Assembly (NCBI GenBank): GCA_964036195.1
Contig: OZ038458.1
Location: forward strand, 3,658,001 to 3,722,000
DNA from: Sphaerolaimus hirsutus
Lineage: Eukaryota; Nematoda; Chromadorea; Monhysterida; Sphaerolaimidae
Direction of reading: 5' to 3'
Length of the DNA stretch: 64,000 nucleotides
Shown: one piece after another, positions 6,001 through 43,904 of the stretch
How positions within the stretch are numbered: the stretch's first letter is position 1
How the letters are laid out: every line of letters begins with the position of its first letter
Translations under genes and position numbers: made by a program
Notes under the pieces: model-generated
The model's database searches: none
The model's input: only the letters and a program-made list of their open reading frames with translations
What the model was told of the DNA's origin: nothing

Positions 6001-9000
6001 TTAGATGAATTTATACACCATTGTCATTCATATTTTCACATAAAGTTAGTACACAGTTGCATTCTTATTATAAATACATTAAGTTTCTGTATGCATTCAC
6101 AATCAAGTAAATATGCATACCAGGTGGATATATACTCACATACAGTGGCGGCAAAGGTAATGCATCCCGGATTCTATAAGTTTTTGTTCAGTGAACTGTT
6201 TCAAAATAAAACTAAATGACAGTTTTTGCAATCCATTTTCAGCCCCAAAATTCCTAATGTGAAGCTATGATATTGCTAGGCAAGACAAGTTTAACGAGAC
6301 ATTTGTATTTCTACAGAATTGTGTACATTTGCTGCTGTTTTCAGTGCGATACTGCACACACGCAGTCAGTTTTTTGTACGCGTTTTCGTTCATTTCCTTT
6401 TTTGTTGTTTTACCTTTTTTTAAGCATGAAACCGGACCGTGTGAAACGTTTTTTACACTTTTACTACCCGGGTAATTCGGCCGGGAAAGCGTAAAAAAGC
6501 GTAAGGGTATTTTACGAAAGCGTAAGTAAAAATACCCATTTACCCGGGTATTTCGGGTAAGCGTAAATACGCTTTCGCAACTCTGGTTTCTGGACACTTC
6601 TGCACTTGCATAATTGGCCGCAGAAAAAATATTTGAATAATTGTACGCTTGTTCAAAATGCATGGTGATTTGTTTGTAATTTCGACACTTCTACAGGCAT
6701 ACTTCAACTTACAAGTGGCCAAATTTTTTTACAACGCCAGCTGAATCAATACGTTACGGTAATCATAGTTTTCGAAATAACAAAGGATAGCCAATTGGGA
6801 ATGGATGAAATAACCCATACCCTCATCATTAAATCGCGATTTATTAATTCCCATTAGTAGAAATGAAGACTTGAAATGATGAAATGAAACAAACTAGTGA
6901 AATCTGGAGAATTGCGTCAGCTGCGCGGTCGCCTTCACAAACTGAGTTGACAGGGTCGGCGGCTGTACGCACCTAAAAATGATCAAAAAGTGCTGTATAG
7001 TCTTGGATAATTGCCAAGGGCAGTTTTCGTCAGACAGTTTTGATGGGGGAGTTTTTCAAGTGGGGTATACGAGACTGCTGCCGTATTTCTTCTAATAGAA
7101 CGGCGCCGTTCTATTTTTTTCGTCAACTTTTTTACCTGCCGTTCTATTGGAGGTGCCGTTCTATTGGAGGCTGCCGTTATATTTTTTCATCAGACATTTT
7201 CACACGATTTTCATTTGAGCATAGTATTTTTAGTGAACCATGAGCGACGTTTTTATATCAGAGCATCAATCCAAATGTGAAAACAACCCCTGAATCATAG
7301 TTCGGAACACCCTGGATATTCTCGGCTCTCACCACCAATTTTCCAAATATTGTTGTGTCTTTTGACACCCTTAAAACATAGTTTCTACCTGCCGTTCTAT
7401 TGGAGGCTGCCGTTCTATTCTTTTCGTGGGTGTAAAAAAGTGCCAAAACCTGCCGTTCTATTGGAGGTGCCGTTCTATTGGAGGTATGCCGTTCTATTAG
7501 AAGAAATGCGGTATTTTATATTTTCATGTAGAGAAAAACAGTGCTGCGAAAATACTTTACTCGTGCAACTTAGTTTGAACTGTTTGTGCCCAAAACTGAA
7601 TATTTACAATGCTTGCACTTTTAATAAATACATATTTGAAGTGAACTAATTAGTACATCTAAAAGTAACTAATTCTCGAAAAAACTAACTCTCTTCAAAA
7701 CAGTCAAAACCGGGCTGCCCCACTTCAGGTAGCACCCAGCCAGCACAGTCAAATTAAGCCTTCCATTTTGCACCAAGTGCCACTCCCAGACCCTGGAAAA
7801 TATCAAATGCCACCCGAAGTGACAAAAGTCATGTAAAATATCATAAAAAATCAAACAACAAGTAAAACAAAAGTAAAACGTGACATTTTACTTGACTGTT
7901 TTGACTCCCTTTTGACACTTTGTATGACATTTTATATTTTACATGACTTTCGAGCCGGTACCTTTGCATGATATTTTACAGGGTCTGAGAGTGGCACCTG
8001 GGTGCAGTCTCCCTTGTTCTCCAATGTCCTGACAATGGATTGAGGTGCGAGGAGTTTATCCGCTACCATTTGGCTAACTGCCAATTTTATCGAAGCGTCG
8101 CCGCAGATTGATGTGACGGTGTTGTATAGAATGGAAAACTGTGTATTAGCAGGGTGGGATTATTATTCTGGGAAGAAATTTATTATATTTTTTCGGTCAA
8201 CCCGATCCAAGCAACGAAAGAATAAAGTTTGAAAAGAAGTTATGGTTAGCCTGATTAGGGTTCTAATGATATCACATTTCCATAGTTTTCAGTGACTCGA
8301 TATTCAATATCACCATCGGTATTTGACACTAGTAGTCCAATATTCATGATACAATAGTCATAATCTCACTTACCAAAATTTGAGGGTCCGTATAGAATGG
8401 AAATCTAGCATTTGCCTGCAGCGCGCTGAATATCAGCCACAGATCCGGCTGTACGGCGTTGTTGAATATCTGCTCCAGGGGCGCATAGGCCAGATATTGC
8501 GGCAATGCTCTGGTTAATTGCGTTTCTGCGGGGATAAACTCAACTTGTTGTCTAATCAGCAAGTTGAAAAGTGACAAGAAAAGTGGTGATTTGCGAGGAA
8601 GGTTATAAATCATAGGTAAAGTGAAAACACAAGTGAGTTTTGAATACCGTATTTCCTCGAAATACCCCCCCCCTCGTTTGACCCCCCCCCCCCCCCTCTT
8701 GAGACCACTATGAAACAATCACCCCCCCCCTCGTAATACCCCCCCCCCAAATTGAGTGTAAAGAGAACGTACATGACAAATACTGCAGTTTGTGTTCTGC
8801 GTAGTGCAGAACACACGTTAAAACAATGTCGGAATCACGTTAGAACAGTGTTTATACCATCTACGTACTAGTAATAGTCTACAGGAGTCTTTACATGTCA
8901 GTTATTGATGCATTTTTCTACCCCAGCGCACATCACAAACAACGATTTTGTACTAGGATTTCAAAAAAGTTCTTGTGAAATAATAACACCCCCCCCCCCT

Positions 9001-12000
9001 CGAAATACCCCCCTCGTTTAACCCCCCCCCCCTCTCGGGAGCACTATGAAACAATCACCCCCCGGGGGGTATTTCGAGGAAATACGGTACACCTAAATGT
9101 TTTGCGGCCTGAAACTTTTGACATATTGCATGAAATTGACAAATTTTTATAACAATTTACATGACATTTGACATGTTCTGTACACTTCAGATGGTGCGAG
9201 ACTGCCACCTGCATCAAAGGTATCGAAACGCTCGGAAGCTCGAACGCTTTTATTATGGAAGCTCAACTAACGCAAGTTTTGGTCATTTCCGAGGGGCGGC
9301 GGGAGCCACTGGGCTGCCACTGCGGCGGCGATTTGCAGCGCCACGTCGATCCTGGGGACAATTCCAAATCTTGTCAAGCGACGAGGCAAGCGTCGGTTAT
9401 TTAAAGTTACAAATCGGGTGTCAGTACATGTCTCGATATTTTCTTACAATAAATCAAATAATTGAATCTTTCTGGAAAAACCTGGAGAAAATAAAATATA
9501 ATGTTGTTTATAAAAAAAATTATATTTTCTTAGTTTTTTTTTGCAAATATCCCGTTATTTTTGGAACGCACTTGCCGCGCAATTGGGCACGTTTCGAGAC
9601 TCGAGTTCGACACCCTTCTAATCACTTTTTGTCAAGATTATGAATTGGCACCTGGTTGTGACCGGGGCGTCCACTGTGTAAGCTAGGGCGGCCCTGTCCA
9701 AGATGGCCACGCCAGCCGCCCAGTGGCACATCGGCCAGCTGCTCGGCATGGTCAATACGTCTGCAAATGTTTATGTTTGTATTTATATAGACTGTGTGTT
9801 TGATTACCCTCCCCCCCGACTGACTAAACACTCTACAGTGAATAGTTCTATATTTTCATGAAAAAAGAGACCTAAAAATTTTCTTACAAAATTTGCTTAT
9901 ATTGAAAGTGATTAAAAATAAGTAATAAGAATATAAAATTTCTGTTTCTTTTCCACATGGTATATGGTAGCTTCCCCTGTAAACCGTCGGGTGAGCAGGC
10001 CATACTACCAGTCACCATACATCCCGTGGGAAACCTTCAACAAAAACCCCCACGCACCCATTTTCTCCCACGGAAACGGAGCTCCAAATGTATTCTCAAA
10101 CTGCCTGAGCAAATCGCCGGCGAGGGCCATGGCGAAGCCGAGCTCGTCCGACCGCCGCGGCGCGGACCACAGACGTAAAGGCACCTGGCTCCCGGCTGAC
10201 ACTAGCTGGGGGGGGGGGGGGTTACGTGCAGCGCTGTACATTAGGCAATGTAAAGTGCCCTAAAAAAATCCATGCAACGTGTCAAATGATATTTTACATG
10301 CCTTTTGACAGTTTACATGACATTTGACTTTTGTAGAGAATTTTACAAGGTGCGGGACTGGCCAATGGTTTAAATACAGGTCCACAAGACGCTCAATTTC
10401 GTCGGTTGCCTTAATAAACGGCGTCCCCACTGCTTTGATTTGACGACAACGTTCAAGTTCGAAAAATCGATGAAATTGATACTACGACAAAAGTTACGTT
10501 TGGAATCTGTTTAGGTACCTTATAATTGATCTACAGTAATCTGAAGTCACACTTACAAGCTTTATTGTAGCTGCCAATCAAAACAACTTCCTGAATCGGG
10601 CCCTAAATCGAGCAGCCAACAAAATAGCTGTGGGGCAAATCAAATCGCTGACCTGGTACAGAGCGATGTCCATGTGGCCCACCACGATCGACACTTGGGA
10701 AGGGAATAGCGAAATTGCGTCCCCCATGTGCGTCGATACTGAGCCGTCGCTGGAGGAGGTATTACGTTGGTTTCATAATTTGATCTTCAATTTTACTTTA
10801 AAAAGGTTCCCGTTAATAACCCCCTCAATGCAAACGTAAAGATATTTGACCACAATTTAATTCCGCGGTGAAAAACACTAAATAAATAGGACCCATTGCA
10901 ATGGGCATGTTTCTAATGCACCAAAAATATTCCAGTCAAAATACAAAACGTTAAGTGAAAATTGGTCACTTGACAGAAACCTTTATCTAAAAACTCACGA
11001 CATGCTATTGGAAGCGAACTGATTGGCATTGCCGACGGCGGCCGTGTCAGCCGGGTGGATCACGCTCAGGCGCACGTCGGCCGACCAGGGGCCAATTTCA
11101 CAAGTGCACAAGTGACACGGCAAGTGGCAAGTGGTAAGTGGTGATGTAAAAGCGCCATGGCGCTGGCGCCAAAGCAATAAGCCACATGGCGCTTGGCGCT
11201 ATCATGCTGTGGCGCCATTGGCGCTTGGCGCTGGCGGTCGGAGAAGCGCCATGGCGCTTGGCGCATTTTTTGCCCGGCGCCAGGAACAAAATGTCTGGCG
11301 CTGATGCACGGCACTAGCGCCAAGGCAAAAAGCGCCATGGCGCTTGGCGCCATTTTGCACTGGTGCCATTGGCGCTTGGCGCTAGAGTCAGAAAAGCGCC
11401 ATAGCGCTTGGCGTTAAAGTACTACCGCTTTTTGCATCACTAGTGGTAAGTGAAGTGACACAGAAAACGTATAAGTGACGGGTAAATTTTTAATGCGAAA
11501 TACTTATCAGCTCACTTACCACTTACTTGCTCGAATAAATCCACTGGGGATTTATTGTTTCGAGAGACATCTTAGGGGGGATACTATCCACTTGGAACTA
11601 TTCAAGGTGGAATTATTAATTCATAAACATTTCCAGGCCTATTTTCAGGCATTTTCAGGGTGGAATTCTTAAACATTATATCAACTCTTTTCACACTATG
11701 TTTTGATTAACAAAATAACATGCATTTTTCAAATTGGACACAACAAATTGATCATATGCCCAAAGGGGAATTACCTATTTTTTCTTTGTTTGTCTAACAG
11801 GTAGCAATTATTCAAGAGGGGGACTTATTCAAGCAAACACGGTGTCGTCGTATTTAAGTCGACTGACAAGTAAATCTCCAAATGAAAACACTCGTCACCT
11901 CACTTACCACTTGAACTTATCTAAATACCACTTACCACTTTATCTGCCACTTCTCCACTTTCGAAATGGACACCAGCGATCGTCGAACACGGGCATGAGC

Positions 12001-15000
12001 CGCATGGCGGTCCACGAGCCCGGCGCCAAGTACACCAACCACTTTGTTTTTGAGTTGACCGATTGTAAAGTGTCGATTTCGGGCGGGGATATTTCCGTTT
12101 GGTTGTCGTAGAACAGCGCGATCAGACCGCCAGGGCGGGATTTAATTTGCCCGAAAAGGTTTTTTGGCTACCCGAACTATTGTAATGTTACCGTATATCC
12201 TCGAATAAGACCCCCCTCGAATAACTCCTCCCCCTCCAATAACTCTTACCTCTTGAATAACGCCCCCTGTGGGTGAAAACCATGTTACAAAATTGACAAA
12301 AATAGTTGATGAAAATACAAAAGAATGTTGACGTAAAGCGGCGACAGCTGATACATAATGTGCCTACACGCACTAGTTTTCACCGTGACTTCGTGTGAAA
12401 ACTGAAATTTTTTCAAATGCAAATTAATGAACACGGTGAATGATTTTACTTAATTTAAATTTTTATTTAAACTATTGAAAGTTGAAAATTGAAAATTTGA
12501 AAACTAAATCATATATAGCACACAAAAAGAGTAGGCTGGATGTGGCCATGTCGCCATTTCAGTTTTCACATCAGTCACGGTGAAAACTAGTGTGTGTAGG
12601 GCCAATGTGTTTGCAGTGTATAAATACACACCTTCTTGTTGTTGTAGAACTGTTAAATACCTGGATTACACGATTGACAGAATGCATTCATACAATGAAT
12701 CAAGTCGAAGTTTTCTGAGGAAAAAATAACCCCCCTTGAATGACTCTCCCCTCCAAAAACGCTGATGGAAAAATAACTCCCCTGGGAACTTATTCGAGGA
12801 AATACGGTAATTAAATCATGTTGACGATTGCACCGATTCGATGTGGTCAAGTTTGTGAATTTGGAGGCTAATTCGGCTGTTATCAGGTATACTCGGATGA
12901 CATTACGCCGTACATTTTTCCGGAGGATACACTCCAGCATGACGTCATACCCGAAACAGTCAGCGTACGCGCAAATCTTCTTTTTTTTTGTGGGGAGTCG
13001 GTTCATAAGTTTTCGGTTGGCCGTCTGCCAGCCGAAGACATACATCATATCTATTTGTAGAGTATCATGTCCGCCGAGTATAAACAGACGAGCATTAAAC
13101 AGTAAAGCTCTTGGTGACGAGGGGCCTGTACTGCACCCTATACATATCTAAAATGTCAATTCAAATGATAAACGAAAACATTTTTTTACAGAGCTTTTTA
13201 CATTTTGCATGACATTTGACATTTTATTTTACACTTTGCCGGCCGCGGGACTGCGAACAGGTTAAAAAAATCAAATGACAAGTGACAGATTTTCAATGAC
13301 AAGTTTGCTTGTCATTTAACTGATCGTGCCTACACCTCAAGATGCCTCTGCTTTACTATAATGAAATTTGAAAAATTTGGTAAACATACCTAAATAAATC
13401 AGCTTTGACAGTTAACGGAAATCAGTTATTTTACAATCTAGGTACACCAACTGTAGTTGACGAACACATCACTCCGGTAAACTTCAAATGATGTTTAAAC
13501 CAGATTTCCGTGCTTTGATTTTTTTAATTAACTGGTCGTAAACTAGTGTGCGTAGAGCCATAACTGACTGACAACCGATCACGCGTCACTGACGGGTCTG
13601 TGCCATCCCACATCTAAACCCATCCCACATCCTGGCTCAGAAATTGGATGTCTGTCATATTTGATGCGTATTCCTTGCATTTTTGGTGGATAATGGATGC
13701 AAAAAAATGTTGATAGTGAAAAAGTGCTACATTAAGAGCCACTTTCGATGACTCGGTAATTTCCCAGGTCAAAGTTTTACTAAATAACACTGACTGCACT
13801 CAATAGTTGACAACTGTCATGTTTTAACACATGTGTTGTCAAATTGCCTTCAAACACTCTAACATGTTGTATTAGATTGATAACCTTGTGTCATCATGAC
13901 TTTTTTGAAATTCCCTAAATTAAATACAGTCTATTTGAGAGACAAAGTAGATTTAGATGTGGGATGGGTTTAGATGTGGGATGAGCCTAGTCGTCACTGA
14001 CCAGTTGACAAGTTGGGGATTCCACAATAAATCCGGTAAACCAAGAAACAAATCGGGCCAATCAAATCCCGCACCAGATTCAGAATCGGGGCCCGAGTAA
14101 TTTGTTGGCACAATGCCAACGTTGTTATAGCGCGCGGTTTGCGTTTGGTGGAGATTAGATACCGCAGTGTAGTGTACGGTAATAATGTAACGTCGGCCGG
14201 CAGTCAAATCAGATGATAGCTGAATCAGAAATGTAGCGTTCTGCTTGTGGGCAGTTTGAGTGGCCTGAAAAGGTATTGTCGCGACACTTTTTCTCTGATA
14301 TACAAAAATTACAGTCAGTCTAGTTTACGGCCGAAACTTTAGAAACTGATAAATGTAATGTCAACACATTTTTGTTTACCGGAATGAATAATTTCCGATA
14401 TCCGTAAACCGCAGTTGACGGACTCCCCATTCCAGTAAACTCAAATGCGCCCAAAGCTGATTTATCAGTTGCCAAAATTACAGCTGTAAACTAGCGTGTG
14501 TGGAGCCAAAAGAATAATTTACCACTAGAATTCTGCTGGTTACTGGAGAACCTTCCTCAGTTACAACAGCCATTCTTTGATCGGGAATAATGTTGGGTCC
14601 CATGTTCATCCAAATTTGTCGGGTATCATTGATGCACTGAAAATGGCACTTTAAACTTCACTGATGTTTAAAAACGCTTTCTCCGTTTATAACACCCGGG
14701 TGTTATTCAAAATTGGACTCAAATATGGGAAATATGTCCTGTTCTTTTTGGAACCTAGTAAAGGAACACCCCAGGTGCTCAGAAAATGCACGGATATGTA
14801 CAGAAATCGGAATGGCATGGTAAATTTTGCATAATTAACCGGTAATTGTTTGTCTTTACCTGTTAATCAAGGTAAAATACTAGCGGCAACAAAAATGGTG
14901 GTAAACGGTATGGTAATTTCCCCACCCTCAGTACAAAAACTTTGGCACACAATTCCATAAAATACCTACGCTGAATGTGTATACCAAATGTCTAATACCT

Positions 15001-17075
15001 GACACCCCAATCCAACCTGTACAAGCGCAGTCAAATTTCCATCTAGCGCAATGGGCCCCACTTCTCGCACGGGCAGCACGTTGACATTGAGCCAGTATTT
15101 AAGGGGGCGCAGCGTGTCGGGTAGTCGCATGCCCGACAGAGACGACCCCACGCTCGGCGATGCAGTTGGCTGGGTGCCAGAATTGACAAAATGAACAGTG
15201 ATAAGTGTATGTGTATAAAGATGGGCACGGTGACACGGTGTGTTGTTTAAAATTAAGATTTTCTGTTCGCCCAGGGAGGGGGCCGATTCTGCAAGTTGAG
15301 AAGTAATTTAGATTTGGAAGTTTGAAGTTTAGAAAACAATTTAGAAGTGAGAAGTAAATTTTTTTAAACAATTTAAAATGAAAAGTAAAAAAAAAATTTT
15401 TACTTCTCATTTTAAAATTTTTACTTTTCATTTCAATCATCTTTCAAACTTCGTGAAGTTTTTCGCCTGAAATCTGCCTTTCGCTCTACCTAATAGAATT
15501 GAGGCCCAGGAACATACATCAACCTGGAAACAACCGCACCCTCCAAATGTAACCTCCAACCCCCTAACCTTAATCTCCCCCTCCCCTGCAGTGTCGCAGG
15601 TGTGCGCGGCCATGACCAAGATCGGAATCAGCACCAAGAGCACCAGCAAGCAGCACAGGCAGCACAGCAGCAGGTAGATGCACCGCCGAGGTACGGCAAC
15701 GTGGTACTCACTGGGGGGGGGGCAATGGCAAAGTGTGGATCAAGGTGGTAGGACATAGTAAGTGCCGGGTAAAGTGATAAGTGTTAGGCAAGGCGCTGTG
15801 GTAGGGTAATTAACAACTTAACAGGTAATGTATACTCGCGAATTAACCCCCGCTTGAATGAGTATACTGTCTCACATTTACAATACGATAGACAAAAGAA
15901 TGACACTTCACTGCGTCCCGATCATGTCGTTTATTAACCGCGTAAAGAAAGAAACCGTCCAGTCGTCATGCATTTTTTGCACACACTGGATTTTTTATTT
16001 AATATACTCGGACGAGGAAAGCCACCTATTATTCATCAGGAGCCACTTCAGTACCTTGTAAAGTGTCACAAACATTCGAACATGGTGCTTTTGAGAAAAT
16101 ATAATTAAATCTAATGTCAGAAAATCTCACAAAAATATAATTAAATATATCTTGAAAATAGATAAAAATATCCATGTTATTTTGAGAGATTTGCTCATAT
16201 TATGGAAGATGCCAGAAAATCTCTCAAAAAGAAAAATATAATAAAATAGCTCTGGAAAACTCCAAAAAATATAAATATGAAAAAATCTTGTATTTATATA
16301 TATATACCTATATATTTTATTATCTGATATATTTTTAAATATTTATCTCTCAGAGATCTCAAATATTTATCTCCCAGAGATCTCAAATAAAAATCTCCCA
16401 GTGTCATGCAGATAACTGATGAAACAAAATTTTACAGAGCACTTTAAATTTTACTTCTCACCCAACTTACCACTCAATCACTTAGCACTTTACCCATCAC
16501 TCACCAACACCCACTAATCTCACCTGGATACATCCGAACTAGCCAAGGCCGAGGGCCGGAACGAGTCTCTTCTCAGCAGCGCGGCTGCGCGCAGTCGCTC
16601 CAAAGTGGACTGACCGCTACGCACGCTGGTGTCGCCCCCGTTGAGTGTGCCTTTTTTAGTTTTTAAAATAATTTTTTTAATTTTCACAAAAATCGCATGC
16701 TTTATTTATCATTGTCTCGCTTGCAACGTGAGAGACATAAATACCTGGAACGTGTAAGCACGTCACTGGAGTATAGAATAAGTATATCAATTACTAAATA
16801 GGTAATTATAAAAAAAACAGAAAAAGATGCCGCACAAAACTTATACACATCGAAAACCCCATCCGCACAAACCCACCAGTTTTCTGCACATATCTCTGTC
16901 TCTCCCCACCGGCGGCTCGAGGCTGTCGCACATGCACACCGACATCAACTCCGGCATGGTGGGCTTGGGCCGCACCGACGCCGCTGCCCGACGCCGTGCT
17001 GCTGTATACGTTGTCATTTGCGTGCGGATCGTCATAGTAGAAGTTGCCATTGACTGGCGCGCCGCGCATCGCCAT
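2916..17075 (-). CDS. M1 aminopeptidase homologue, probably inactive (locus B, exons 1-19)
   Basis: Nineteen minus-strand exons encode about 850 residues of an M1 (gluzincin) aminopeptidase-like type II membrane protein; exon phases agree at nearly all junctions. In order: cytosolic tail, Cys/Leu-rich signal anchor, the M1 N-terminal domain (RLPDTLRPLKYWLNV), the FDEP-like region (MPVFDDRW), the GAMEN-equivalent segment (MPSSWPMCHWAAG), the zinc helix (AAVAAQW where peptidases have HExxHQW), a YL..NA..DLW segment, G-P-V strand (WGSPVLTV), the beta-sandwich (VVYYSDENQW) and the first helices of the ERAP1-like C-terminal domain. The segment that would carry the third zinc ligand (NEGFA) is missing between exons 12 and 13. 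Non-catalytic M1 proteins exist (TAF2), so it may be a pseudo-peptidase or a decaying gene. The last 200 or so residues are not visible. Several introns are inverted-repeat elements. Confidence 0.85.
3300..3450 (-). CDS. M1 locus B exon 18
   Basis: Reads GYKRALSAVKDLSSN and SHLDWLQAM, the first alpha-helices of the C-terminal domain. Acceptor gacgcag; the first base completes the Arg codon split by the GC donor of exon 17. Confidence 0.8.
3477..3800. mobile_element. CCGTATTTGC foldback element (copy 1)
   Basis: Inverted ends ccctatttgcttgaataatc and attcaagcaaatacgg, with GGGGGATTATTCGAGG repeats on the right side. It lies in intron 17 of locus B. Interior sequence is shared with 57565-57881. 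Confidence 0.75.
4133..4188 (-). CDS. M1 locus B exon 17, GC donor
   Basis: Reads ALVLAQLINDAFILAR, the conserved R-x-x-L-I-D-D-A-F helix start of M1 proteins. The 3' junction is GCCAG|GCATGT, a GC donor: only this boundary joins in frame to exon 18 (AG|A = Arg). Confidence 0.8.
4321..5118. mobile_element. TGCCACTCCCAGACCCTG element with nested insertions
   Basis: Left end ggccactcccagaccctg follows CTGG; right end aggtctgggagtggca. The interior is swollen by an aaagtatat / cgtaaa-rich element like the one at 48532-49037. It lies in intron 16. Confidence 0.6.
5245..5514 (-). CDS. M1 locus B exon 16 (beta-sandwich)
   Basis: Ninety codons, phase 0 at both ends. Contains ENVSFPILIRNR and VVYYSDENQWNSLFDQW, matching the M1 pattern of a W-rich strand followed by G-Y-Y-R-V-N-Y-D. 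The usual Arg-Val-Asn is changed, so the loop is divergent. Acceptor acttacag, donor GTT|gtgagt. Confidence 0.85.
5812..6585. mobile_element. hAT-like element, GCGTAA-filled (copy 1)
   Basis: Exact 8-bp duplication GTTTCTGG (5804-5811, 6586-6593); ends CAGAGTTG and CAACTCTG. The outer parts are runs of GCGTAAGCGTAAG-type motifs, inverted between the two sides. Near-identical ends occur at 53918-54744. No reading frame for a transposase. Confidence 0.88.
7080..7505. repeat. GCCGTTCTATTGGAGG repeats, inverted
   Basis: Copies of the unit tgccgttctattggagg at 7138-7180 and 7388-7490, with ttcttctaatagaacggc at the left edge and ccgttctattagaagaaatg at the right edge. This is an inverted-repeat element with its own minisatellite, inside intron 15 of locus B. 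Confidence 0.6.
7690..7782 (-). CDS. M1 locus B exon 15
   Basis: Reads LNLTVLAGCYLKWGSPVLTV, the M1 segment just before the beta-sandwich (usually W-x-x-Q-x-G-x-P-V). Its 5' boundary is ambiguous: either GGGAG|TGG inside the preceding element, or exact removal of the element at CTTG|GTG. Both keep frame. Confidence 0.75.
7783..7997. mobile_element. Introner-like element forming intron 14 of locus B
   Basis: On the minus strand the exon ends ACCCAG and the intron begins GTGCCACTCTCAGACCCTG; it closes with CAGGGTCTGGGAGTGGCA before CTTGG. The inverted ends match at almost every base and lie at the exon borders. The same family forms an intron at 31145-31340 and lies outside recognised genes at 59937-60094. 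Confidence 0.85.
7998..8138 (-). CDS. M1 locus B exon 14, atypical segment
   Basis: Forty-seven codons (SQMVADKLLAPQSIVRTL) with canonical splice sites and phase 0 at both ends. It is hard to place in the M1 fold: exons 13 and 15 would join well without it. It shares TTTCCATTCTATAC with the end of exon 13, hinting at a local duplication. Confidence 0.55.
8374..8543 (-). CDS. M1 locus B exon 13
   Basis: Reads ALPQYLAYAPLEQIFNNAV and PDLWLIFSAL, matching the M1 helices Y-L-x(n)-N-A-x(3)-D-L-W. Acceptor caacaag completes the Leu codon from exon 12; donor TTTTG|gtaagt. Confidence 0.8.
8647..9087. mobile_element. CCGTATTTCC foldback element (full copy)
   Basis: Ends CCGTATTTCCTCGAAATACC and GTATTTCGAGGAAATACGG with TA on each side, in intron 12 of locus B. 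Runs of C and G flank the ends. A tttataccatctac-like central part is shared with other copies. Confidence 0.85.
9272..9351 (-). CDS. M1 locus B exon 12 (zinc-helix position, site lost)
   Basis: Reads IDVALQIAAAVAAQWLPPPL. The QW aligns with HExxHQW of M1 peptidases, putting A-A-V-A-A where H-E-x-x-H binds zinc. All three ligand positions of the motif are changed, not one, which points to long loss of catalysis. Confidence 0.75.
9352..9651. mobile_element. Introner-like element forming intron 11 of locus B
   Basis: Minus strand: the left end after CCAGG is TGCCAATTCATAATCTTG; the inverted right end next to CCAGG is GGACAATTCCAAATCTTG. Both borders carry CCAGG, so removal leaves a single CCAGG (ACC AGG ATC) in frame. 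The duplicated CAGG supplies CAG|GT and CAG|G. Length 300 bp, no nested insertion. Confidence 0.85.
9652..9760 (-). CDS. M1 locus B exon 11 (GAMEN-equivalent segment)
   Basis: Reads VLTMPSSWPMCHWAAGVAI. M1 peptidases have a P-x-F-x-x-G-A-M-E-N-W-G segment here for substrate N-terminus binding; PMCHW replaces it. Acceptor tttgcag; joins exon 10 to rebuild the Lys-Met-Asp start of the motif. Confidence 0.8.
10058..10184 (-). CDS. M1 locus B exon 10
   Basis: Reads VPLRLWSAPRRSDELGFAM and FENTFGAPFPWEKM, the M1 helix with F-E-x-Y-F-x-x-P-Y-P-L-x-K. Canonical borders, both with CCAGG at the 5' side. Confidence 0.85.
10185..10652. mobile_element. Probable introner-derived intron 9 of locus B
   Basis: Bordered by CCAGG on both sides (TACCAGG / GAGCCAGG). 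The left end after CCAGG, TCAGCGATTTGATTTGCCCC, resembles the left end of the intron 6 element (GCGGGATTTGATTGGCCCG). The right end does not match it clearly, and part of another element (10262-10352) is nested, so the assignment is less sure. Confidence 0.5.
10653..10749 (-). CDS. M1 locus B exon 9
   Basis: Reads GDAISLFPSQVSIVVGHMDI, matching the M1 strand usually written T-x-x-M-S-T-Y-L-x-A-F-x-V. Acceptor cctccag, donor ACCAG|gtcagc. Confidence 0.8.
10999..11084 (-). CDS. M1 locus B exon 8
   Basis: Reads SADVRLSVIHPADTAAVGN, the M1 strand after the FDEP motif (x-F-x-I-x-L-x-H-P...S-N). The upstream border has no AG: the frame requires joining at the TGG shared with exon 7. Donor TC|gtgagt. 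Confidence 0.85.
11139..11442. mobile_element. hAT-like element, GCGCCATGGCGCT-filled
   Basis: Exact 8-bp duplication GTGGTAAG (11131-11138, 11443-11450). Ends TGGTGATGTAAAAGCGCC and GCTTTTTGCATCACTA. The body is palindromic GGCGCC / GCGCCATGGCGC motifs. It is nested in intron 7 of locus B. Confidence 0.88.
11521..11842. mobile_element. CCGTATTTGC foldback element, diverged
   Basis: Ends ttacttgctcgaataaatcc and ttattcaagcaaacacgg. Nested in intron 7. The central part (aaattggacacaac) matches the family copies at 3477 and 57565. Confidence 0.65.
11973..12129 (-). CDS. M1 locus B exon 7 (FDEP-like region)
   Basis: Reads GGLIALFYDNQTE, KTKWLVYLAPGSWTAM and RLMPVFDDRW. In M1 enzymes this is G-x-Y-x-S-x-Y ... 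T-Q-F-x-x-x-x-A-R-x-x-F-P-C-F-D-E-P. Both borders are CTGG joints with inverted-repeat introns. Confidence 0.85.
12191..12807. mobile_element. CCGTATATCC/CCGTATTTCC-type foldback with nested element
   Basis: Left end CCGTATATCCTCGAATAAG after TA; right end cttattcgaggaaatacgg before TA. A second inverted element (12361-12605, CCTACACGCACTAG ... CTAGTGTGTGTAGGG) has inserted inside it. Confidence 0.8.
12361..12605. mobile_element. CACACTAGTTTTCACCGTGA inverted-repeat element (copy 1)
   Basis: Inverted ends cctacacgcactagttttca and tgaaaactagtgtgtgtagg around an AT-rich core with the phrase aaaaagagtaggctggatg. Close copies at 27361-27627 and 60523-60789. Confidence 0.75.
14074..14264 (-). CDS. 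M1 locus B exon 6
   Basis: Reads NATFLIQLSSDLTAGRRYII and TVHYTAVSNLHQTQ, the M1 strands L-x-x-G-x-x-Y-x-L-x-I-x-F. Acceptor ccttttcag; the 3' border is the non-canonical CTGG joint. Confidence 0.85.
14523..14636 (-). CDS. M1 locus B exon 5
   Basis: Reads DTRQIWMNMGPNIIPDQRM, matching the M1 N-domain strand T-x-x-I-x-L-H-x-x-x-L-x-I. Acceptor cattttcag, donor GTG|gtaaat, phase 0 at both ends. Confidence 0.85.
15017..15169 (-). CDS. M1 locus B exon 4 (start of M1 domain)
   Basis: Reads MRLPDTLRPLKYWLNVNVL then LDGNLTALVQ: the classic start R-L-P-x-x-x-x-P-x-x-Y of M1 proteins, preceded by a Ser/Pro-rich stalk. Borders cacccag and ACAG|gttgg; 51 codons. Confidence 0.88.
15569..15710 (-). CDS. 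M1 locus B exon 3 (signal anchor)
   Basis: Reads RRCIYLLLCCLCCLLVLLVL followed by IPILVMA, about 23 hydrophobic residues after RR, as in a type II signal anchor with palmitoylatable Cys. Acceptor cccccag, donor AAG|gttagg; 1 base plus 47 codons. Confidence 0.85.
16524..16652 (-). CDS. M1 locus B exon 2 (cytosolic tail)
   Basis: Arg/Ser-rich tail (STLERLRAAALLRRDSF). Donor TCCAG|gtgaga splices in phase to exon 3. The 5' border is unsure: aaaaaag| at 16652 or acaccag| further in. Confidence 0.6.
16877..17075 (-). CDS. M1 locus B exon 1, probable start
   Basis: Begins MAMRGAPVNGNFYYDD with codon use like the other exons. The 3' end is a guess (ACTG|gtgggt) and its phase does not match exon 2 cleanly, so another boundary or small exon is likely. 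Confidence 0.45.
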
Positions 17076-17424
17076 TTGGAAGTGGTTTTTGATAAAACTG
17101 TTTTATTTGTCAATTATTTATTTAAAAAATGACAAAATAGGGGGAATTAAATATTTACAATTCGCATTGATTTACAGTGTGCATGAATGTGATGATATTC
17201 AATTGGATGGAAAATGTTCAGTGCGTAAGCTAAAGCATATGGCAACACAATGGCGCGGCGGCAGACTTGTTTATTGGTACGTTTTACGGATATTTATAGA
17301 GACAAAGTACCACGCATAGCCAGTATTCAAAAACTAGAACTTCCAGGCACATTTTTACCTGGCAGGATTTTGAGTCCACCACAAATGGATTTAAAATGCA
17401 GAGAACAGCCATACAGAGAACAGG

Positions 17425-17727
17425 TGCCGGTTCAGCAAGTGGAAAAGTTAAGAGTTAAAAGTTGAGTAAAATGATAAATGATAAGTTAAGAGTAAAGTTA
17501 AAAGTTAAGAGTTGAGTAAAATCATTTGTCGTTTTGAGTATTTTGTGTATTTGTAAGTTGCTGGTTGGCGAGCTTTTATCGCCTGGCCAGTAGACCCCTT
17601 TTAGGCCAGTAGACCCAGTAGCTTTTACTCAACTCTTAACTCTTAACTTTACTCATAACTTGTCATTTGTCATTTTACTCAACTCTTAAGTTTTAACTCT
17701 TAACTTTTCCACTTGCAGAACTGGCCC
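17425..17727. mobile_element. GGCCAGTTCTGCAAGTG element flanked by CAGG / CTGG
   Basis: Starts TGCCGGTTCAGCAAGTGG after CAGG and ends CCACTTGCAGAACTGGCCC before CTGG. The interior is inverted runs of aagttaagagttaaa. It has the same CWGG flanks as the intron-forming elements but lies just outside locus B. Confidence 0.75.
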
Positions 17728-42010: not shown

Positions 42011-42017
42011 TACCTGG

Positions 42018-42120
42018 GGCCAGTTCCGCAAGTGGTAAAGTAAAAAGGAAAACTCTCCTCTTCACATTTCACTTTACTCTTTATTCTACTCTTTACTTTT
42101 TAATTTTACACTTGCGGAAC
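42018..42120. mobile_element. GGCCAGTTCCGCAAGTG element (short copy)
   Basis: GGCCAGTTCCGCAAGTGG follows CTGG; inverted end CACTTGCGGAACCAGC. A second short copy is at 42284-42374. Confidence 0.7.
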
Positions 42121-42283
42121 CAGCACTAGGGGCAGTCCCAAAGTGTCAACTGTGTATCCTAATCTTATGTTTTTGTATCCAGAATCTTTTTTTTTCGTAT
42201 CCAAATCGTATTATAAAACATAATATTTGAATACAAAAACAAAAGATTAAGATACAAGTTAATACTCTAGGACTGCGCCCTGG

Positions 42284-42374
42284 TGCTGGCTCCGCAAGTG
42301 CAGAAAATTAAAGAGTAAAATTAAAAGTGAAAAGGAAAATTTTCCTTTTACTTTCCCACTTATGGAACTGGCCC
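42284..42374. mobile_element. GGCCAGTTCCGCAAGTG element (second short copy)
   Basis: TGCTGGCTCCGCAAGTG after CTGG; inverted end CACTTATGGAACTGGCCC. The interior folds back on itself (aaggaaaattttcctttt). Confidence 0.7.
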
Positions 42375-42954
42375 CAGACCACAGTTTGCACATGATATTG
42401 AGTACTGATACATGATACTGTGTATTGATCAATGTAGATATGCTTTTCAGTATTGTTGGGATATTTTTGGGTGCAACATGCACATTGCGTTCTTTATATC
42501 TTCTAAGGGCAGATATTCAGCGAAATATAGTCTATAAAGTACACTGACCGACTGCAAACTTTACAATGAAATCTACCATAAAAGTCTGAAAAATTACTTT
42601 TTACGGCACATTGTATTGTTCTCGTTATGGTGAAAGTGGTGCTAAAGTTTCCTGGAACCATTATTCATCAAAACGTAACAACATTTTTTCATAGGGTTCA
42701 GTCCGATACTTTTCAAAAAAGTAAACGAGATACTCAACACAGGGAATACTGTAGGAAAGGGGGCGCTGTACTTGTACACCCATGAACACTTGTCCGGTGC
42801 CTTTCCTGGTGCCTTTTACTTCGGTCCCGGTGCTAGCACCTTTGGCACCGGCAAAAAATGGCATCGCACCGCATCGGCACTGGTGGTATTCTAAAAAATG
42901 GCACCGTCACCGGCAGGGCACCCTTGAAAAAGGGCACCGCACCGCACCACTGGT

Positions 42955-43483
42955 TAGGGTTGGGAAACCGAACCGAACCGAACTGAGCACTATTTTGGAA
43001 CCGAGCTTGAGAACCGGAACCGGAACCGAGAGCCGGCACTTAGAACAGGAAACGAGCATAATATCCGAAAGAACCGAAATTTTATACATATTATAGCCGA
43101 TCAAAATGCATGCATGCAAAAGCCGCGTTTCGGACATTTTCCTCCCACAGATGTACAGGTACAGCATGCGACGAAAAATAAAAAACGTAGTACAAATTCA
43201 AATTTGAAACAGCTTTTGATTTGCACATGATTTCATATCTGATGTTTGCTACATAACAACATTATGTTGGTTTTCTTTATTCAGCTGATTTTTACCCCAT
43301 TCCCAGATTATTTAATAACCCGGAATCGGAATTTTGGACATTTTGGAACCGAAAGAACCGAACCGGAACCGAACTTAATAACCGAACTGAACCAAGAACA
43401 GGAACTGAAAATTTAGAGGAACCGAGAACCGAACCGAATTTTTCTAGAACCGAGAACCGGAAATTTTGAAATTCCCAACCCTA
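42955..43483. mobile_element. hAT-like element, GAACCG-filled
   Basis: 8-bp duplication CCACTGGT / CCGCTGGT (42947-42954, 43484-43491). Ends TAGGGTTGGGAA and TTCCCAACCCTA; outer parts are aaccgaaccg and gaaccggaaccg arrays around an AT core. Inserted in a ggcaccg-rich repeat. Confidence 0.88.
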
Positions 43484-43904
43484 CCGCTGGTGCCCTTCGT
43501 TACCTTTCCGTCACTACTATTGGACTATTGCTATTTTGAGAAAAGAAAACAACAATAAACAACAACAATAAATGTGTACGCAAACAGGTAATTATGATTT
43601 CATCGGGAAAACGCGAATAAAAAACACAATAAATAGATTTTGATTGATGTTTATCCGTAATTTAATTTGTTGTTGTTTTCAAGCAACAAATGTTCTTGTT
43701 TTTAGAAGTTCGTTCCAATTATGCACCTGGACAAGTGACGAAAATGCTAACAAGTAGTAAGTCAAGTTAGGTAACAGGCAAGTAAATGTCTAAATGAAGA
43801 TTTTTTATTCTCATACATAACGTTTTTTACTAATTTAATTAATCTTCGTACCACGCCCCTTGTAACTTGTGGAATTGGCCCCTGGAACTATAGCTTGCTG
43901 TATA

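Follow-up and report, generated by a model that had tools for sequence, protein, structure and literature searches.

The origin of new introns is an old question, and introners have rarely been reported from animals (PMC9860276). In that paper, introners were found in only two groups among animals and land plants, both of them animal (Gozashti et al. 2022); they are transposon-like elements in exons, with one splice site borne by the element and the other coming from the copy of the target. The NuwaI group of PHIS DNA transposons (PMC4482050) is marked by CWG flanks (W, A or T), inverted repeats starting GGG and occurrence in animals. Here we analysed a 64,000-nucleotide stretch of the 348-Mb genome of Sphaerolaimus hirsutus (C14:3658001-3722000; hereafter the window), in which an M1-aminopeptidase-like gene on the minus strand, running from ~15.3 kb down to 7.7 kb, holds four introns, I1 to I4, whose ends recall both systems. 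We read them as non-autonomous DNA transposons of PHIS/NuwaI-like type, similar to miniature inverted-repeat transposable elements (MITEs), that insert at CWG and become introns, and we put the probability of this reading at about 0.83. They are transposon-like and lie in exons as introners do, but differ from the published introners (PMC9860276) in the CWG target, in an asymmetry between GTG and GGG ends, in one CTG acceptor that we infer, and in a W that seems not to be duplicated. A term search of the main text of PMC9860276 gave no mention of Harbinger or CAG. Among the papers listed in an open-licence literature search, none linked introners to Harbinger or CWG. A 2025 paper reportedly deals with the horizontal spread of introners.

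All four introns, which were the starting point of the analysis rather than a random draw, carry inverted repeats at the places given by the original prediction, which had been made from the letters of the window. I1 (1944 nt, 12131-14074, minus strand, with termini that would be GT...TG) contains an element at 12134-14074 with inverted-repeat arms at 12135-12183/14024-14072; it is flanked by CAG (gene strand CTG) at 12131-12133 and 14075-14077, and its gene-strand junctions read AATCTG/GTGCGGG...CCCTG/GCGG, the slash marking the boundary. I2 (888 nt, 11086-11973, minus) contains a family-B-like element at 11089-11973 with inverted repeats at 11089/11973, gene-strand CTG at 11086-11088 and 11974-11976, and junctions CGCTG/GTGTCC...CCCTG/GTCGG. 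I3 (300 nt, 9352-9651, minus; canonical GT-AG) contains an element at 9355-9651 with inverted repeats at 9355/9651, gene-strand CAG at 9352-9354 and 9652-9654, and junctions ACCAG/GTGCC...CCCCAG/GATCG. I4 (7774-7997 or 7783-7997, minus) contains a family-A element at 7777-7997 with arms 7773-7805/7969-8001, begins CAG/GT and reads CCCAG/GTGCC...GGGAG/TGGCACTTG/GTGC. At I1, I2 and I3, where CWG stands on both sides, the M1 frame closes up exactly once the element and a single CWG are taken out. The prediction had claimed exact joining and CWGG flanks for all four; this is borne out at I1, I2 and I3, but at I4 the right side is TTGG, and the 3’ end may be either GGGAG (intron 7783-7997, three extra codons) or TTG (7774-7997). 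The predicted coordinate 7783 thus uses an ordinary AG in the inverted repeat, an in-frame AG nine bases ahead of the TTG junction in both copies of the gene. The ends had also been taken for four separate families sharing only a target habit, a view we do not keep: I4 belongs to family A and I2 to family B, and all share the first bases GTG/GGG and look related.

The host gene matches Pfam weakly (Peptidase_M1_N, E 0.0079; Peptidase_M1, E 0.0011; both under the curated cut-offs) and reads QIAAA at the HExxH zinc site of its paralogs, so that from its sequence the enzyme looks catalytically dead. The gene has an inverted duplicate at C14:3747500-3765999. Over 12 coding segments, 1485 coding nucleotides align between the two copies without gap or stop, with 30 synonymous and 8 nonsynonymous codon differences (NG86 nonsynonymous divergence, dN, 0.0071; synonymous divergence, dS, 0.089; dN/dS ~0.08), while their introns differ by many indels; the I1-I4 junctions are all present in both. 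The segments compared include, all on the minus strand, the one 5’ of I1 in the M1 N-terminal region (14076-14264; 3 synonymous and 0 nonsynonymous differences), that between I1 and I2 (11976-12131; 1 and 1), that 3’ of I2 (11007-11084), which corresponds in alignment to the strand that follows FDEP in M1 enzymes, those 5’ and 3’ of I3 (9654-9758, and 9273-9353, which carries QIAAA) and those 5’ and 3’ of I4 (7998-8138 and 7675-7773). By this codon comparison the host protein is under purifying selection, and therefore the elements would have to be removed from the message. One segment, 8374-8550, has 5 of the 8 nonsynonymous codon differences, reflecting relaxed constraint or a frame or boundary that is off. 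The maintenance of a zinc-motif-less M1-like gene (7675-15127, minus) in two inverted copies points to a conserved pseudoenzyme. The 13 indels read between the copies include none with CWG/GKG ends at the junctions, and a 4.1-kb insert in the duplicate, judged by eye, has no transposase-like frame.

Evidence that introns were gained comes from the paralogs, a subset of the genes behind 41 M1 exon matches in the genome, and covers the I2 and I3 sites. The open frame runs unbroken across the I2 site in 8/8 retrieved paralogous loci that span it (L007, L041, L043-L048); for the I3 site the count is 9/9, made up of the same loci plus L004. These comparisons bear on the alternative that ordinary MITEs inserted into introns that already existed, or into a gene in decay, with the exact join of the coding sequence a matter of chance or the gene a pseudogene. 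The loss of the zinc motif would suit such a gene, and few of the family members examined could be placed in exons; a dN/dS of ~0.08 and 1485 ungapped coding nucleotides are hardly expected of a pseudogene, however, nor are unbroken paralogous sites of older introns, and element and exon boundaries fall together at I1, I2, I3 and at two further loci described below (L041 and L077). We give this alternative a small chance of being right.

Genome-wide, CWG stands before the ends of two families more often than expected by chance. The family-A end GKGCCASTCCCAGACCCTGTAAAA has 2098 exact matches and the family-B end GKGCCRRTTCMGCAAGTGG has 3300, pointing to many similar copies; CWG precedes 1716 of the former (81.8%, in the GKGCC form), 895 of these being CAG/GTG, and 2861 of the latter (86.7%). 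For the other family-A end (GKGGCASTCC...), at least 1528 of 2178 matches are CWG/GGGGC, the 70% being a lower bound that counts GGG ends and not GTGGC. The background of CWG, measured in 299,748 bases of the genome, is 2.7% over all positions, rising to 3.5% where GKG follows, and backward-read control patterns of the ends gave 0 matches. The predicted target, CWGG, is best read as a 3-bp CWG, with the GT brought by the element. Looser A and B ends in the retrieved sequence are less clean (CWG at 63/107). In the same 299,748 bases, 22 element pairs starting GKG, ending CMC and matched at 14 or more of 18 positions have identical flanking 3-mers: CTG in 4 and CAG in 3 (0.43 expected), GGG in 6, CCC in 6, and ATG, TGA and TCA in 1 each; the GGG and CCC flanks we attribute to homopolymer slippage. 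The signal for CWG came with the restriction to GKG...CMC ends; when duplicated 3-mers of every kind were sought beside every inverted repeat, it was absent (172 matches; CTG 3, with CCC 21 and AAT 18 at the top), and this unrestricted search seems dominated by hairpins and simple repeats.

The two ends of a copy usually differ, and the two W letters beside them often do. We collected 24 two-ended elements from 100 listed family-B places, all on C1 and all CWG by pattern, the W count thus covering copies with CWG at both ends in part of one contig. In 23 of the 24, a GTG end is paired with a GGG end. Read on one strand, the flanking W bases agree in 13 copies and differ in 11, and among the 16 copies of 212-228 bp agreement splits 8:8; 11 or more disagreements of 24 under true duplication with 5% mutation would have a P of ~7e-9, and a 50:50 split is not rejected. 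Plain target-site duplication does not predict this, and W seems not to be simply duplicated. Members of one family also differ in W (43 A and 57 T across the 100 family-B ends listed), so it is not passed on unchanged with the element. The disagreement is not an isolated result: of the 34 pairs that family-based pairing yielded in the retrieved sequence, 15 carry CWG at both flanks, and in these W is the same in 8 (2 of them one insertion shared by the two copies of the gene, in L050 and in the window) and different in 7 (1 of them a nested pairing, 42283-42374). A looser pairing of CWG-flanked repeats at 12 of 18 matches, which takes in nested pairings and unrelated palindromes, has the same W in 11 cases and a different W in 18.

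Independent W letters, 13 the same and 11 different, would also follow if CWG were part of the element at both ends, with W variable and the target not duplicated, in which case an insertion would add three nucleotides to the mRNA. The free variation of W within families of near-identical ends (43 A/57 T; 895/1716 CAG/GTG) fits this poorly, the joined protein at I2 falls one residue short of the paralogs instead of exceeding them, and that at L077 has no extra residue at the junction relative to 6wmm_A. We regard the chance of this alternative as slight. The integration of piggyBac was reportedly treated in Mitra 2008. In piggyBac (PMC7351741) the element carries a target-like TTAA overhang, whose pairing with the target gap could, if transferred to CWG, explain the independent W; piggyBac belongs to another superfamily with a TTAA target, and the comparison is an analogy only. 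It suggests a joining without DNA synthesis. More specifically, a single-stranded CWG overhang of the element may pair with the cut CWG target and be sealed without synthesis, the W:W mismatches being repaired at random; such an element would carry both splice sites and tolerate either target, and the spliceosome may accept CTG. We propose this full scheme tentatively, as possible rather than probable.

Two further genes contain introns of the same make. L041 (C14:3722001-3732000), an active-looking M1 aminopeptidase gene directly past the end of the window, has its own element-derived intron at 7623-8058, which reads TCCTG/GTGCCACTCC...GTGCCCCAG/GAAGG (CTG/GTGCC...CCCCAG/G). Its removal joins RLTRGAVQS-W-KGPGVELNLTEAFKCYILRPNYPYVTV in frame, the catalytic domain continuing into the YILRPNYPYVTV stretch; by eye the joined motif resembles L043 and L044, and the frame of L043 is open across the site. 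In L077, on C2, an 808-bp element forms an intron at 1248-2058 (CAG/GTG...CCCCAG) that splits CCAACAG/CAGATTTC. The joined protein aligns across the junction without a gap to 6wmm_A, beta-1,3-N-acetylglucosaminyltransferase 2 (E 8.6e-10), and a Galactosyl_T domain begins just downstream (Pfam, E 5.4e-14). The GTG end lies upstream in 5/5 asymmetric intron-forming elements (I1, I2, I3, L041, L077; chance 1/32), a small sample beside which I4 has GTG at both ends. The sense orientation of all five would be expected if the copies had multiplied via RNA and reverse splicing, the route put forward for the introners of fungi. The inverted repeats, the palindromic nature of CWG and the number of ends, in the thousands, agree instead with DNA transposition, and we hold an RNA route to be highly improbable.

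The exonic candidates considered were L015, L016, L020, L023, L029, L032 and L052, Pfam being run on the first five. L015 was rejected, its frame stopping one codon past the junction despite a Leu_zip match, as was L020, where a weak 7tm_1 match below cut-off ends at the junction and the element is antisense; L016, L023 and L029 gave no Pfam match.

With insertion as a DNA transposon as our preferred reading, an intron would arise as follows. The element would insert into an exon, GTG end upstream, so that the CWG of the exon and the GT of the element together form the donor CWG/GTG. The CWG copy at the far end would act as acceptor when it is CAG (I3, L041, L077), and with the element and one CWG removed the protein would be unchanged; otherwise an AG belonging to the inverted repeat would serve (I4), or else a CTG in place of AG (I1, perhaps I2). 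Some introners work in this way, the donor being borne by the element and the acceptor drawn from the duplicated target (PMC9860276). Since about half of the two-ended copies counted have a different W on their two sides, the CAG downstream may depart from the target sequence; with independent W bases an exon cut at CTG can therefore still end with a downstream CAG, as at L041. The earlier proposal that insertion supplies both splice sites thus stands for the donor, and for the acceptor if the downstream copy is CAG, but a CTG copy gives CTG. Splicing of I1-I4 is itself what we infer from conservation of the reading frame.

If the junction copy, CTG, is used as acceptor, I1 and I2 would not be ordinary GT-AG introns. 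Ordinary M1 introns end in AG in 7/7 cases placed before WFGN (L004, L005, L044-L048). Alternatively, I1 and I2 may actually be spliced at ordinary AG sites off the junction. At I2, both copies offer an in-frame AG 21 nt further downstream, whose use would cost seven codons. For I1, with GT sought within 60 nt of the junction and AG from -100 to +39, the window copy offers two GT-AG solutions, removing 12-15 residues of the upstream exon, and the duplicate five others, extending into an indel-differing stretch, but no GT-AG pair in this range is common to both copies and keeps the exons in frame; moreover, in the duplicate the stretch just upstream has a deletion of 1 nt, and the exon is free of deletions. 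We consider splicing off the junction unlikely, if far from negligible, and I1 would be the best, though unproven, case for a CTG acceptor. Unusual splice sites have been described elsewhere. In the copepod Eurytemora affinis (PMC5714493), GA and GG donors likewise occur in recent introns of an invertebrate, but there it is the donor that varies and here it would be the acceptor. Human U2 introns (PMC2374985) also use TG as a 3’ splice site, but as an alternative, whereas I1 would depend on one. Many introns of the larvacean Fritillaria borealis fall outside the GT/AG rule, AG/AC and AG/AT being the commonest (PMC13326754), whereas ordinary introns here look GT-AG. A tunicate host with splicing of the Fritillaria type was rejected on the genetic code. 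The AGR codons of the mitochondrial COX1 (14,754-bp contig) stand at what we take to be conserved serines, which fits the invertebrate code 5 and not the tunicate code.

As to the source of the elements, they are short and non-autonomous, with inverted repeats and a high copy number, as MITEs are. They resemble NuwaI (PMC4482050) in CWG flanks and animal occurrence and in part in inverted repeats starting GGG, but one end is usually GTG, W agrees in 13/24, and most are short and non-autonomous. In the NuwaI group of PHIS, mobilisation is by a DDE transposase together with a Myb/SANT partner, and the genome has at least 163 matches to PF13359 (PIF/Harbinger-type DDE). Because none of these is tied to the element ends, and because identity of W and GGG at both ends are not cleanly found, we call the elements NuwaI-like rather than members. 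The families look like one PHIS/NuwaI-like group that shares the GTG/GGG asymmetry, so the suggestion that one enzyme moves several of them is plausible in the form of one enzyme group. As a separate observation, many of the PF13359 matches listed, such as C118:15682-16314, are near-identical in score, with 4 TGA in the matched 633 nt; this group is perhaps a young family with an intron.

Several of these observations weigh against our reading. No transposase is linked to the element ends; I1 requires a CTG acceptor, while the ordinary M1 introns placed here end in AG; the W letters of two-ended copies differ nearly as often as they agree; and the mark is not found throughout, since in 19/34 of the looser pairs CWG is missing from one flank or both. 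I1 and I4 are too dissimilar to the paralogs to be compared with them. Finally, of the elements beyond the window and the M1 loci, 15 had their joined flanks read and six of these were run against Pfam; just L077 was seen to split coding sequence.

Other elements and repeats lie in the window and beyond. A family-B element on the plus strand at 17424-17727 has GTG/GGG ends and flanks CAG and CTG, so that W differs, and a B-type element at 42017-43881 (plus) has flanks CTG/CTG and a further B-type right end at 42374; neither is assigned an exonic status. A palindromic repeat (TACCGTATTTCCTCGAA... and related forms), present at 8647-9088 and 12188-12810 of the window and in the interior of L077, apparently inserts at TA and is nested inside element introns; its copy at 8647-9088 is absent from the duplicate gene, having arrived after the duplication or been lost there. 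At 1928-2700, coding-like repeats (YAHVPDTHMC...) in several frames are probably a simple tandem array. In the mitochondrial contig (L009/L039), the translated frames after COX1 and ATP6 look internally repeated, suggesting a tandem repeat.

Here the sequence itself displays the CWG target, the asymmetry of GTG and GGG ends and the W letter on each side, which makes three questions testable. Firstly, did a change of one base at one end turn a known type of cut-and-paste transposon into an intron-maker? Secondly, does it integrate without DNA synthesis? Thirdly, does a conserved animal gene depend on a CTG acceptor? If the overhang scheme is true, the element would be an intron-maker that bears both splice sites and can land at CTG or CAG.

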